From NCBI GenBank assembly GCA_946187935.1, contig CAMHSJ010000002.1, positions 62,001 through 126,000 of the forward strand: a stretch of 64,000 nt of DNA, written 5' to 3'. Positions 47,345 to 52,872 of the stretch are shown here, piece by piece (the stretch's first letter is position 1; the number at the start of each line of letters is the position of its first letter). This DNA is from an uncultured Clostridia bacterium (GTDB taxonomy: Bacteria > Bacillota > Clostridia > Saccharofermentanales > Saccharofermentanaceae). The notes under the pieces are model-generated. The model saw only the letters and a program-made list of their open reading frames with translations, was not told where the DNA came from and did not search any database. A program made the translations under genes and the position numbers.

Positions 47345-48769
47345 ATGCTAAAAAATTTTGAAGAAGCGAAGTTGTTCATCGAAGAGAATGACATCAAGAT
47401 GATCGACTTCAGGATGATCGACCTGAACGGAAGATGGCATCATCTCACGATCCCTGCCGAGAGGCTTACAGAGCATACCATGACATCAGGCATAGGTTTT
47501 GACGGAAGCAATTACGGTTTTGCTCCCGTTGAGAAGAGCGATATGGTATTCATTCCCGATCTTTCCAGTGCTGCGATAGACGATTTCTGTGAGATCAAGA
47601 CTCTCTCCATGATAGGTGACGTAAGGATCATAGGTGATAAGGAGAATATCCCATTTAACCAGGAACCAAGAAATGTCAGCAAGCGTGCAGAAGAATATAT
47701 GAAGGAAACAGGTATTGCAGATACTTTCCTCTTAGGACCTGAATTCGAGTTCTATGTTTTCGACGAGGTGTCTTTTGCCAATAAACCCAACGGCTGCGGT
47801 TTCTCTGTTGACGGTGAGGAAGCTTTCTGGAACAACGGAGAGATCGGAGGTATGGGTTTTCAAACTCCTCATCAGGGCGGCTACCACATTGCGCCCCCAC
47901 AGGATATCGCTTATGACTTGAGGAGCAGGATATCAATGCTCATGGAAAACCAGGGGATCAAGGTCAAGTACCACCACCATGAAGTAGGTTCTGCCCAGAT
48001 GGAGATAGAGGTTGAGTTTGCGCCTATGACCGAGATGGCTGACAAGACCATGCTCACCAAGTACATCATTAAGAATGAGGCAGTCATGGAGGGTAAGACC
48101 GCAACGTTCATGCCCAAGCCTATATATGGCGAAGCAGGTTCGGGAATGCACGTTCATATGCTGATGTTCAAGGACGGTAAGCCTGTATTCTACGATGAGA
48201 ACGGGTATTCCGGACTTTCACAGACGGCTCTTTATTTTATCGGCGGAATACTAAGACACGTTCCTGCGATCTGCGCGTTCTCAAATCCTTCAACGAACTC
48301 ATATAAGAGGCTTATTCCCGGATTCGAGGCTCCCGTTACGATCGGTTATGCAACAGCAAACAGAAGCGCAGTAATCCGTATCCCCGCATATGCCAAGACT
48401 CCTGATAAGAAGAGATTCGAACTCAGGAATCCTGATGCAACATGTAATCCTTATTATTGCTATGCCGCTATCCTCATGGCAGGACTTGACGGCGTCAAGA
48501 ACAAGATCGATCCCGAGAAGGAAGGCTATGGCCCTTATGACTTCAATCTCTATAATCTTTCCGATGAGGAGAAAAAGAAGATCAAGGGCCTTCCCAAGTC
48601 ATTGGGTTCTGCACTTAAGGCTCTTGAGAAAGATCATGACTTCTTAACCGCAGGCGGAGTATTCCCCATTGAACTCATTAATCTTTGGATAGCAAACAGA
48701 AGAAAGGATCTAGCCAAGCACGTCTCTATGCCTACACCGATGGAATATGAGATGTATTACGATCTTTAA
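47345..48769 (+). CDS. glnA: Glutamine synthetase type I
   Basis: Glutamine synthetase, 474 residues, which forms glutamine from glutamate, ammonium and ATP. Motifs seen: DGSNYGFAPVEKSDM (beta-grasp domain), PEFEFYVFDEV (metal-binding Glu), KPIYGEAGSGMHVHMLMF (ATP/metal motif) and RIPAYAKTPDKKRFELRNPDATCNPY. Length and the C-terminal NLYNLSDEEKKKIKGLPKSL region, near the tyrosine adenylylation position of some enzymes, place it in the long GSI type and not the 440-residue GSI-alpha type. GGAGGTG lies 8 nt before the ATG. A terminator follows 125 nt after the stop. Confidence 0.95.
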   Translation: MLKNFEEAKLFIEENDIKMIDFRMIDLNGRWHHLTIPAERLTEHTMTSGIGFDGSNYGFAPVEKSDMVFIPDLSSAAIDDFCEIKTLSMIGDVRIIGDKENIPFNQEPRNVSKRAEEYMKETGIADTFLLGPEFEFYVFDEVSFANKPNGCGFSVDGEEAFWNNGEIGGMGFQTPHQGGYHIAPPQDIAYDLRSRISMLMENQGIKVKYHHHEVGSAQMEIEVEFAPMTEMADKTMLTKYIIKNEAVMEGKTATFMPKPIYGEAGSGMHVHMLMFKDGKPVFYDENGYSGLSQTALYFIGGILRHVPAICAFSNPSTNSYKRLIPGFEAPVTIGYATANRSAVIRIPAYAKTPDKKRFELRNPDATCNPYYCYAAILMAGLDGVKNKIDPEKEGYGPYDFNLYNLSDEEKKKIKGLPKSLGSALKALEKDHDFLTAGGVFPIELINLWIANRRKDLAKHVSMPTPMEYEMYYDL

Positions 48770-48808
48770 TGTGACAAGGTGTGACAAGGGGACATGCCTT
48801 TTGTCACA
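48770..48808. repeat. Palindromic 29-nt repeat, copy 1, with a 10-nt duplicated head
   Basis: A short partial unit (TGTGACAAGG, 48770-48779) is directly followed by a full 29-nt unit (48780-48808). The full unit has 8-bp perfect terminal arms, TGTGACAA and TTGTCACA. The inner part can pair further with two G-T wobbles. The sequence is identical to copy 2 and, reverse-complemented, nearly identical to copy 3. This pattern resembles REP-like palindromes found in many Firmicutes genomes. It begins at the nucleotide after the glnA stop codon. Confidence 0.85.
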
Positions 48809-48893
48809 TTTGGCCGGACTGGAGCAGTTCAGAAGCAGTAACTATCCCGGTTCAGTAAGTACCGGACCGGACTGAAGTCCAAATTTGCAAATT

Positions 48894-48929
48894 CACTCGC
48901 AAATCAAGATACGTTTTGCGGGTGTTTTT
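48894..48929 (+). terminator. Rho-independent terminator after glnA
   Basis: CACTCGCAAA (48894-48903), an 11-nt loop and TTTGCGGGTG (48915-48924) pair over 10 bp with one G-T wobble, followed by TTTTT. Its T-run ends exactly where repeat copy 2 begins. Confidence 0.85.
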
Positions 48930-48957
48930 GTGACAAGGGGACATGCCTTTTGTCACA
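48929..48957. repeat. Palindromic 29-nt repeat, copy 2
   Basis: Identical over all 29 nt to copy 1 and in the same orientation, 120 nt downstream of it. It lies directly after the glnA terminator and about 70 nt before the hydrolase gene. Confidence 0.85.
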
Positions 48958-49026
48958 CTAATGCTTGTAATAACAGGCGCCAAGTGGTTCAATTTTATCC
49001 GTGGATTTTTTATCAGGAGATAGGAT

Positions 49027-51273
49027 ATGTCAGACGTCATTAATGAAGAGATCAAGAACGAAGCAGTAGCAGAACAGGCTTCAAAACCCCAAAAGGAAAA
49101 GCTGATTAAGCGGATCTGGAATGGGATCAAAAAGCCGTTTAAGTTCTTGTGGAAGAAGAGTGGACCGGCTCGTGAATTCATGGGCAAGGGCAGGGCAGGC
49201 GGCATGATCCTTGAGATCATAGTTGCATCGCAGTTATGGAGCAGCGGTACTTATTTTACTTTCCTCGGCAAGATCCCGCTTATCCTGTGCGTCGTAATAA
49301 CCGCGGTCATATGGGTCATATTTGCCGAGCTCCTTAATCTCATTATCAAGATCGTTTTCGGCGGCGGCAAACGCTGCAAATCATATTTCTTTACATCTCT
49401 TATGGCTGTAGGATCTATGAATACAATTTCAGATCAGTTTGGTGCCGTCCCCGGAATGCTCATCATGACATTCCTTCTGGTGCTCTCTTCTGACATTACC
49501 GGAAGGATTGTCTGGAGTTTTATAAGGACCAGGAGGTTTAAGCAGGTATTTGCTTATGCTGCCGGAGTGCTCTCAGTTTCGTATCTTATCCTTTTTGCCT
49601 TCTTCTACCATAACGATAACTTCGGTGAGAGCAGGATAAGTTTCTATAATGGCATCTATCAGCAGGAATCTTATACGGACGGATTCTCATCATATCTTGA
49701 AAACGGACCTTACAGCGTGGGCACATTGTCTTACGGTCCCGGCGAGGGCGAGGACCTGGCGGCCGGCACGATCGATCTCAGTGTTTACGATTACATTGAA
49801 GATGCGGAAGATCCTCTGAGCGCCTTGACCAGAGCCGTCAGTGATTATGATTTTGCGAAGACTCCTGTTAAGGGTCAGATCTGGTACCCTGAGGGACAGA
49901 GTAATTGCCCCGTTTTCTTCATAGTTCACGGCAACCACGATTCCACGACTCCGTCTTACTTGGGTTACGATTACCTGGGCGAGTACCTGGCATCCAACGG
50001 ATATGCCGTTGTATCAGTCGATGAGAACATAATCAACGAGCTTGGCACTAATAATGACTTAAGAGCTGTACTCCTGCTCGAAAACATGAAGTTTCTGCTT
50101 GATCAGTCCTCATCTTCCGGCAGCTTGATATCCGGCCTCATCGACCCTGAAAAGATCGCGATAGGCGGTCATTCCAGAGGCGGTGAGATGGTCGCAACAG
50201 CTTATCTTTTCAATGAACTTGATTCATATCCCGAAGACGGAAGCATCAAGTTTGACTACCATTTCAACATCACATCCATCGTTGCTATAGCCCCTGTCGT
50301 CGACCAGTACAGGCCTGTCAGCCGATCGGTAGAATTATCCGATGTCAGTTATCTTCTGCTTCACGGATCCAACGATCAGGATGTCTCGATAATGTGCGGC
50401 GAGAAGCAGTATAACAACATAAAGTTTACGGGCGAAGCCGGGGACTATATGATAAAGTCTGAAGTCTATATCCTGGGTGCCAACCATGGTCAGTTCAATT
50501 CACTGTGGGGGCAGTACGATTCCCCTACCGGCAAGGGTTATCTCAACACATATAACTTTATCGCAGGGGATGAACAGAAGCTTATTGCCAAGGCCTACAT
50601 AAGGACTTTCCTTGATCTTACGCTCTTAGGAGACGATACCTATCTGTCTCTTCTTAAGGACGTATCACAGTACACGGGAGATCTTCCTGATACTGTCTAT
50701 ATAACAAACTTCGAAGATTCAGACAGAGTTACGCTCTGTTCCTTTGACAGAACGACCGATATATCAGATTACGGCAACGGCACTTCAATAGACGTAACCG
50801 GAACAAAATGCTGGACCATCGAGCCATATACCAGAGGTGACGGCGGTGAAGGCGAAGATTATGTTCTGTCTTTGTCCTGGGAAGAGGATTCTTCGCCCGC
50901 GATAATTGTTGATTTTGATCCTATAGATATTTCAGACGGCTATATCTGCTTTGGCATCGCCGATATGAGAGAGGACACGGAAGACTTGGAAGAAGGTCTT
51001 GATTATACGGTCACCCTTAAGGATGCAAATGGAAATGAAGTAAGTATTACAAGACCTGTATTTGTATGGCACTCGCTGGCGGTTCAGCTCTGGAAGCAGG
51101 ATGTCTTCTTCGGAAGCTATGAGTATAAGCATCAGATCCAGGGCGTCGTGATCACACCTGACATGATAGGTCAGGCGGATCTTGACCTCGCTCAGATCAC
51201 GGGCATGACGATCACCACAGACGGAACAGCTGAAGGCGAGATAATAATCGACGACATCGGATATTCAGTGTGA
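49027..51273 (+). CDS. Membrane-anchored alpha/beta-hydrolase
   Basis: A 748-residue protein. After a charged N-terminus, residues about 58-195 contain four to five transmembrane helices. Residues about 270-540 are an alpha/beta-hydrolase fold related to the chlorophyllase/dienelactone-like and PET-hydrolase type families: oxyanion HGNHDS motif, nucleophile elbow GGHSRGG with Ser383, and catalytic His487 in GANHGQF. The last 200 residues are beta-rich, possibly a binding domain. A strong AGGAGA ribosome binding site precedes the ATG. The gene is bracketed by palindromic repeats, and its stop codon lies within repeat copy 3. Substrate unknown. Confidence 0.8.
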   Translation: MSDVINEEIKNEAVAEQASKPQKEKLIKRIWNGIKKPFKFLWKKSGPAREFMGKGRAGGMILEIIVASQLWSSGTYFTFLGKIPLILCVVITAVIWVIFAELLNLIIKIVFGGGKRCKSYFFTSLMAVGSMNTISDQFGAVPGMLIMTFLLVLSSDITGRIVWSFIRTRRFKQVFAYAAGVLSVSYLILFAFFYHNDNFGESRISFYNGIYQQESYTDGFSSYLENGPYSVGTLSYGPGEGEDLAAGTIDLSVYDYIEDAEDPLSALTRAVSDYDFAKTPVKGQIWYPEGQSNCPVFFIVHGNHDSTTPSYLGYDYLGEYLASNGYAVVSVDENIINELGTNNDLRAVLLLENMKFLLDQSSSSGSLISGLIDPEKIAIGGHSRGGEMVATAYLFNELDSYPEDGSIKFDYHFNITSIVAIAPVVDQYRPVSRSVELSDVSYLLLHGSNDQDVSIMCGEKQYNNIKFTGEAGDYMIKSEVYILGANHGQFNSLWGQYDSPTGKGYLNTYNFIAGDEQKLIAKAYIRTFLDLTLLGDDTYLSLLKDVSQYTGDLPDTVYITNFEDSDRVTLCSFDRTTDISDYGNGTSIDVTGTKCWTIEPYTRGDGGEGEDYVLSLSWEEDSSPAIIVDFDPIDISDGYICFGIADMREDTEDLEEGLDYTVTLKDANGNEVSITRPVFVWHSLAVQLWKQDVFFGSYEYKHQIQGVVITPDMIGQADLDLAQITGMTITTDGTAEGEIIIDDIGYSV

Positions 51274-51297
51274 CAAGAGGCATGTCCCCTTGTCACA
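51269..51297. repeat. Palindromic 29-nt repeat, copy 3 (inverted)
   Basis: This copy is in the opposite orientation to copies 1 and 2. It differs by one base from their exact reverse complement. It contains the TGA stop codon of the hydrolase gene (51271-51273). Its right arm includes TTGTCA (51290-51295), a near-consensus -35 hexamer for the downstream sugar operon. Confidence 0.85.
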
Positions 51298-51369: not shown

Positions 51370-52872
51370 ATGAGTATTGCCAACGTTTTTTCCAAGAACA
51401 TGCCTGAGATCAAGATGGGTATCATCGCAGTCAGCAGAGACTGTTTTCCCATGAGCTTGTCAGAGAGCAGAAGAGCTTCTGTTGTGGCAAGTTACAAGGA
51501 AAGATACGGAGATATATATGAGTGCAAGGTGACTGTCGAGAATGAGAAAGACATGGAGAAGGCCCTTGAAGATATCAAGGCAGCAGGATGTGATGCCCTT
51601 ACTGTCTATCTCGGCAATTTCGGACCTGAAACTCCTGAGACATTACTCGTTAAGTACTTTGACGGACCATCCATGGTGATCGCCGCAGCTGAGGAAGCAG
51701 GCGATAGGCTCCTTGATGACAGAGGAGACGCTTACTGTGGCATGCTCAATGCAAGCTATAACCTCAAACTCAGAAATCTTAATGCATATATACCTGAATA
51801 TCCCGTAGGCGATGCTGATGAGTGCGCTGACATGATCGCAGATTTCCACTCAATAGCCAGGACCGTATCTGCAGTAAGGAATCTCAAGATAATAGGTTTC
51901 GGACCGAGGCCTCAGGACTTTTTGGCCTGCAATGCTCCCATCAAGCAGCTCTACAACATAGGTGTTGAGATCGAGGAGAACTCAGAGCTCGATCTTTTCG
52001 AAGCATTCAAAAAGCATGAAGGCGATCCCAGGATCCCTGCTGTTGCAGATGACATGGCAAATGAACTCGGTGCAGGCAATAAGAAGCCTGAGATATTAAA
52101 CAAGCTCGCACAGTACGAACTTACTCTTCTTGACTGGGTCGAAGCACACAAGGGAAGCAGGAAGTTCGTTACCATTGCAGGCAAGTGCTGGCCGGCATTC
52201 CAGACACAGTTCGGTTTCGTTCCGTGTTTTGTTAACAGCCGTCTTGCAAAAAGAGGCATCCCTGTTTCATGCGAAGTCGATATCTACGGTGCTCTGAGCG
52301 AATACATCGGCTCAGTAGTGAGCAATGACGTTGTTACGCTCCTTGATATCAACAATTCAGTCCCTAAGGATATGTATAACGAAGAGATCAAGGGCAAGTT
52401 CTCCTACGATTACAAGATCACTGATACATTCATGGGATTCCACTGCGGCAACACTGCATCGACCAAGCTCGCTTTCTGTGAGATGAAGAATCAGAAGATC
52501 ATGGCAAGATCACTGCCTGAGGAAGTAACAAACGGTACGCTTGAAGGCGATCTTGCGGCAGGCAAGGCAACAGTATACAGACTCCAGTCAACTGCAGATA
52601 CCAAGCTTCGCGCTTATATAGCACAGGGTGAGATCCTTCCTGTTAAGACAAGGTCATTCGGAGGCATCGGTATCTTCGCTGTTCCTGAGATGGGAAGATT
52701 CTACCGTCATGTATTAGTCGAGAAGAACTATCCTCATCATGCAGCTATTGCTTTCGGTCACTACGGCAAGCTCCTCTATGAAGTATTCAAGATGTTAGGC
52801 GTTGAGGTCGACGAGATCGACTATAACCGCCCTTCAGGAGTGCTCTACAAGACAGAGAATCCTTTCGCATGA
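51370..52872 (+). CDS. L-fucose/L-arabinose isomerase family protein
   Basis: A 500-residue sugar isomerase of the FucI/AraA-like superfamily (COG2407 type), which interconverts an aldose and a ketose using a divalent metal. Conserved elements are an N-terminal Rossmann-like domain (MGIIAVSRDCFPMSLSESR), a middle KCWPAFQTQFGFVPCFVNSRL region, putative metal ligands in CEVDIYGALSEYI and LLDINNS, and a C-terminal NYPHHAAIAFGHYG with the catalytic His. It overlaps the xylulokinase gene by 4 nt, so a pentose is the likely substrate. D-arabinose, L-arabinose and even D-xylose are all possible. Confidence 0.8.
   Translation: MSIANVFSKNMPEIKMGIIAVSRDCFPMSLSESRRASVVASYKERYGDIYECKVTVENEKDMEKALEDIKAAGCDALTVYLGNFGPETPETLLVKYFDGPSMVIAAAEEAGDRLLDDRGDAYCGMLNASYNLKLRNLNAYIPEYPVGDADECADMIADFHSIARTVSAVRNLKIIGFGPRPQDFLACNAPIKQLYNIGVEIEENSELDLFEAFKKHEGDPRIPAVADDMANELGAGNKKPEILNKLAQYELTLLDWVEAHKGSRKFVTIAGKCWPAFQTQFGFVPCFVNSRLAKRGIPVSCEVDIYGALSEYIGSVVSNDVVTLLDINNSVPKDMYNEEIKGKFSYDYKITDTFMGFHCGNTASTKLAFCEMKNQKIMARSLPEEVTNGTLEGDLAAGKATVYRLQSTADTKLRAYIAQGEILPVKTRSFGGIGIFAVPEMGRFYRHVLVEKNYPHHAAIAFGHYGKLLYEVFKMLGVEVDEIDYNRPSGVLYKTENPFA

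Follow-up and report, generated by a model that had tools for sequence, protein, structure and literature searches.

Inverted copies of a REP-like hairpin, the probable cognate of a single RAYT-type transposase, frame an alpha/beta-hydrolase gene in an uncultured Clostridia bacterium

The 29-nt palindromic repeat that frames an alpha/beta-hydrolase gene in the DNA analysed here (the window: 64,000 nucleotides of an uncultured member of the Saccharofermentanaceae) very probably belongs, as its cognate REP/TIR hairpin, to the one HUH-Y1 transposase of the genome, an enzyme of RAYT/TIRYT type. This enzyme most likely recognises the repeat and disperses it in trans, and the hydrolase bracket would be a product of such activity. 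The link between transposase and repeat is strongly supported; we infer both the movement of the hairpins by the transposase and the origin of the hydrolase bracket in this activity. Transport of the hydrolase gene as a passenger is possible, and unproven for this gene. The window genome (G000) is a draft assembly of 1.95 Mb in 44 contigs, 91% complete. The framed interval and its neighbours are laid out in the window as follows.

47345-48769, plus strand: glnA, a glutamine synthetase-type gene (Pfam PF00120/PF03951), the left neighbour
48770-48779, plus strand: partial repeat head TGTGACAAGG, 10 nt, directly 3' of the glnA stop codon TAA (from sequence)
48780-48808, plus strand: repeat copy 1, TGTGACAAGGGGACATGCCTTTTGTCACA, a REP/TIR hairpin (from sequence and hairpin fold)
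48894-48929, plus strand: probable intrinsic glnA terminator (between copies 1 and 2), a stable RNA hairpin with a T run after it
48929-48957, plus strand: repeat copy 2, identical to copy 1 (from sequence)
49027-51273, plus strand: gene for a membrane-anchored alpha/beta-hydrolase of 748 aa with a cutinase/PETase-like core and a GHSRG nucleophile motif, intact (from reading frame and homologues)
51269-51297, minus strand: repeat copy 3, inverted and one base different, giving the hydrolase its TGA stop codon at 51271-51273 (from sequence)
51370-52872, plus strand: fucI, an L-fucose isomerase C-terminal domain gene (Pfam PF02952), the right neighbour

This arrangement is that of the initial annotation: three 29-nt palindromes, of which copies 1 and 2 are direct and identical and copy 3 is inverted with a single base changed, and a hydrolase reading frame between copies 2 and 3. 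The latter two make up a 31-nt inverted repeat that is 97% complementary. The copies are predicted to fold, as DNA, into hairpins of -8.5 to -8.8 kcal/mol (z -4.5), and 100 shuffles of the window yielded 0 matches to the repeat. The window was also rightly described as lacking a transposase: it contains no Y1 gene, and the only one in the genome resides on another contig, where it has a bracket of its own.

C5:70566-71297, minus strand: RAYT-type Y1_Tnp transposase gene, 243 aa, the sole Y1_Tnp gene in the genome
C5:70537-70565 and C5:71318-71346: inverted repeat copies bracketing it, one touching the stop codon (0 nt past it), the inverted one 20 nt before the start

A genome search for a RAYT/Y1 transposase, as the initial annotation had proposed, thus finds exactly one gene, and because this gene is bracketed by inverted copies of the same hairpin, the repeat can be assigned to it as its REP/TIR family. 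The protein scores above the cut-off for Pfam Y1_Tnp and matches NCBIfam REP_Tyr_transpos (NF047646) with E 2.7e-16 and 59.8 bits, under the curated cut-off of 80; in structure it best matches 4er8, the complex of E. coli RAYT with a REP hairpin. Its HUH motif is H59-F-H61 and its Y---NP motif Y117-IHKNP, with key residues invariant in five relatives, and a conserved SIRQIERLTGINRGVI together with C-terminal helices suggests, by motif and model only, an HTH-like C-terminal extension. Relatives of the transposase gene in the genus (G003, G033), in Lachnospiraceae and in Oscillospiraceae are surrounded by GGGGAC-type inverted repeats of their own; in a Lachnospiraceae MAG these form a perfect 30-nt inverted pair, GTGACAAGGGGACAGGCACCTTGTCACATT. 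At one such locus (L116, G003:C137, 1289-2570) the RAYT gene shares the space between tandem inverted repeats with a small XRE-type HTH gene, and the repeat also overlaps the stop codon of an upstream carboxylase-type gene.

Genome-wide, the repeat occurs in about 30 copies, not hundreds: 22 sites match within 3 mismatches and 30 match a degenerate pattern, whereas a reversed control pattern has 0 matches. The conserved unit is only about 31 nt, with the consensus (A)TGTGACAAGGGGACATGCCTTTTGTCACAT; no longer conserved unit was found around the repeat, the flanks not being conserved past about 31 nt, and the consensus has no GTAG/GTRG head at the foot of the hairpin. The form of the TIR motif GGGGWSAS that dominates in the copies is GGGGACAT, with the last base off; GGGGACAG is found in variants and at locus L208. 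A longer, MITE-like form, in which about 130 nt common to both sites continue from the repeat, occurs at G000:C7:47311-47440 and C33:7290-7417. Since 38 other members of the genus essentially lack the repeat, repeat family and transposase co-occur. The sole convincing copy among these 38, in G015, occupies the same place as its counterpart there; G015 has no detectable Y1 gene, which indicates that some copies are inherited.

The copies show a strong preference for stop codons. Of 28 copies examined, 16 fall between -8 and +5 nt relative to the stop codon of a gene, where 8% would be expected if intergenic placement were random (p = 4e-11), and six overlap or provide that codon; related repeats in G003, G033 and G094 overlap stop codons in the same way. 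In E. coli, REPs are reported to lie preferentially near stop codons, within 15 nt, and to stall ribosomes (PMC12306157). This likeness, and the stable folding of the repeats as RNA, would suit hairpins that are functional regulatory or terminator elements selected at gene ends and unrelated to mobility. Such an origin is nevertheless improbable: the repeats are practically limited to one genome of the genus sample, are tied to one transposase gene and keep no conserved places, and glnA already has a terminator of its own.

Two blocks elsewhere in the same genome are bounded by the hairpins.

G000:C5:70529-71354: REP-RAYT-REP block (L023), with an 8-bp direct repeat, AATTATCA, on both sides
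G000:C11:41648-44275: two-gene block (L201), 2.66 kb, with a repeat at either edge and another copy in the middle

The first has an exact empty site in G011, which at the hrcA locus is among the two nearest relatives; G011 is continuous through TTGCCTCAATTATCACCGC and has AATTATCA there as a single copy. The second holds a beta-lactamase-fold gene and an uncharacterised 478-aa gene for which the genus offers no DNA match; G011 and G015 both lack the block, and their flanks are colinear for at least 5.4 kb on each side. A third case, on contig C33, is a candidate empty site only: an HD-domain gene lies between two repeats, but in G011 the two flanks of the site are at the ends of two contigs; the HD-domain gene is found in that genome at another locus, next to the orthologue of the gene that adjoins the repeat at C1:37109 in the window genome. 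No convincing target duplication was found at the C11 and C33 blocks. At C7:41704 a five-gene insertion has a repeat at its left edge only. Gene order tells a similar story. Over the compared 69% of G011, order is broken at 15 of 18 mappable repeat-bearing gaps and at 32 of 109 other gaps (p = 2e-5), the parts outside that 69% inflating the breaks in both groups; a conservative recount, in which the ambiguous C8 and C14 are counted on the other side and two colinear sites missed by gene calling (C1:112065 and C7:47311) are added, gives 13:7 against 32:77 (p = 0.004). Breaks without repeats are also common, and one gene (G000:C4:29990-31419; G011:C35:93115-94544) has been relocated with no repeat nearby, so that gene movement in the genus does not need repeats. 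In a draft assembly, repeats at block edges could in principle be misjoins; repeats of 29 nt are shorter than the usual assembly words. The hairpins mark the exact edges of inserted genes at these other places in the genome, and may help in gene movement.

The hydrolase gene has an irregular distribution. It is present in a minority of genomes (10 of 59, distant homologues counted), and its homologues in the genus lie at varying loci with different neighbours; the gene is not fixed in one syntenic place, the arrangement that would have spoken against its being a passenger. The GHSRG motif and the other likely catalytic residues are invariant in 10 homologues; the predicted structure, of low confidence (pLDDT 54), was left out of the conclusions. 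The G011 hydrolase gene adjoins a zinc-ribbon-like gene; the equivalent place in the window genome, C7:53538-53681, is closed, and no repeat scar was found there. In relatives the hydrolase gene often adjoins that of a second alpha/beta-hydrolase of 520 aa (L190, L191, L193, L194, L198, L199); this partner is missing from the window genome, which has just a distant N-terminal match. One homologue (L069/L072, G034:C133) is in two frames, split near codon 413 by a frameshift or stop.

The initial annotation suggested that the framed gene could be a REP-like or MITE-framed passenger moved in trans by a RAYT-type enzyme. The REP-like repeat and the enzyme hold up: a single RAYT-type transposase, the obvious cognate, is framed elsewhere in the genome by the same inverted copies. 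The idea of framed blocks also gains from the insertions with empty sites just described. Movement of the hydrolase gene as a unit fares less well. No empty glnA-fucI site is readable: the adjacent pair is kept in 0 of 85 genus genomes (DNA search, with further searches by hydrolase protein, fucI and glnA), and glnA has different flanks in every genome inspected. Going by these comparisons, the place of the hydrolase gene in the window is common to no relative, and the order of events cannot be read. There is no target-site duplication at the ends of the hydrolase block, whichever left copy is chosen, and none of these repeats was found beside hydrolase homologues in the genus. Entry of REP-hydrolase-REP between glnA and fucI as one unit, whether by the transposase in trans or by repeat recombination, has somewhat less than an even chance. 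The C5 and C11 insertions, the displaced HD-domain gene, the excess of gene-order breaks at repeats and the gene's lack of a fixed locus (it is at another place in G011) all favour it; the missing empty site and terminal duplication, the homologues and other window-genome genes that changed place without repeats, and a GC content equal to that of the neighbouring genes all count against it. It is because the empty site and the duplication are lacking and relatives relocate the gene without repeats that we regard passenger transport as possible but unproven.

Separate insertions, two or three in number, at the ends of genes account for the hydrolase bracket about as well as passenger transport does. 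Hairpins would have arrived independently at the 3' end of glnA, past the glnA terminator and at the stop codon of the hydrolase gene, and their inverted layout would be due to chance. We give this course of events an even chance. Copies 1 and 3 are at stop codons, as are most other copies; the C-terminus of the hydrolase ends at the same point as in relatives and is unaltered; and at other loci single hairpins are cleanly present in the window genome and absent from G011. On the other hand, copies cluster around single genes beyond chance (6 neighbouring pairs less than 2.7 kb apart; 1.2 expected), and other bracketed intervals match differences in gene order.

The transposase most likely recognises the hairpin as single-stranded DNA, through its GGGGAC core and TGTGACA/TGTCACA stem, cuts it and rejoins it elsewhere, spreading the repeat in trans; E. 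coli TnpA-REP is reported, in work cited in PMC6006769, to cut and rejoin single-stranded hairpins. New copies would land mostly at gene 3' ends, often giving or touching the stop codon. Two inverted hairpins could serve as the ends of a longer unit. Inverted copies also bound larger blocks, around the transposase gene and around two cargo genes at another locus, both insertions relative to relatives; the hydrolase gene is an intact accessory gene of variable location lying between inverted copies. IS200/IS605-type chemistry is not expected to produce an 8-bp duplication (PMC2817692); unless the one at the RAYT block is a by-product of repair, it therefore calls for another enzyme or for a joining step of a different kind. 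A bolder proposal, and a doubtful one, is a TIRYT-type single-strand transposase system that, in contrast to known REPtrons, would move as one unit, duplicate 8 bp of its target and carry passengers singly or in pairs, the hydrolase gene included, between hairpin sites at gene 3' ends.

RAYT transposases are widespread, and may either spread hairpins only or shift genes too; published surveys have given no sign of movement of the RAYT unit itself. Here, one small genome combines empty sites for a transposase block and a two-gene block, both hairpin-bounded, with a strong preference for stop codons, and the question of gene shifting therefore becomes directly testable in a defined system. The hairpin-bounded blocks suggest a possible route of gene shuffling without ordinary insertion sequences; the 8-bp duplication, which one would not expect of a Y1 transposase, is the loose end of greatest interest.

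The nearest known system is the TIRtron/TIRYT (PMC3733652), with which the window genome shares a Y1 transposase of the HUH class bearing Y---NP and, at the C-terminus, an HTH-like motif, and inverted repeats with a GGGGAC motif that flank the gene and are also dispersed, as a family of moderate size. The TIRYT, or subclass 2.1, is described by its HTH extension and inverted repeats with GGGG[AT][CG]A[CG] (PMC3733652, PMC6006769), and TnpAY1 subclass 2.1 is RAYT group 1 (PMC6006769). Self-complementarity is a further likeness, being known from some published TIRs (PMC3733652). In the window genome the terminal repeat is a clean hairpin in its own right, and the last base of GGGGWSAS differs; further differences are the 8-bp direct repeat at an empty site and the blocks that enclose other genes. 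The 2018 survey reported no REP-like sequences close to genes of subclass 2.1 (PMC6006769), whereas they are present here. With the REPtron/REP-RAYT of gammaproteobacteria (PMC2817692, PMC3116915) the system has in common that each repeat family has one transposase, whose gene is surrounded by inverted repeats, and that intergenic hairpins are scattered; it differs in having no GTAG tag, in a low copy number and in that REPIN doublets are not the main form. The REPtron authors report no IS-like mobility of the RAYT unit (PMC2817692, PMC3116915). IS200/IS605 elements, which make no larger target duplications (PMC2817692), share the catalytic fold, but the RAYT gene of the window genome is single-copy and has palindromic inverted ends. 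The repeat system belongs to the known TIRtron/REPtron family, with signs of cargo and of mobility as a unit that are usually missing in published cases.
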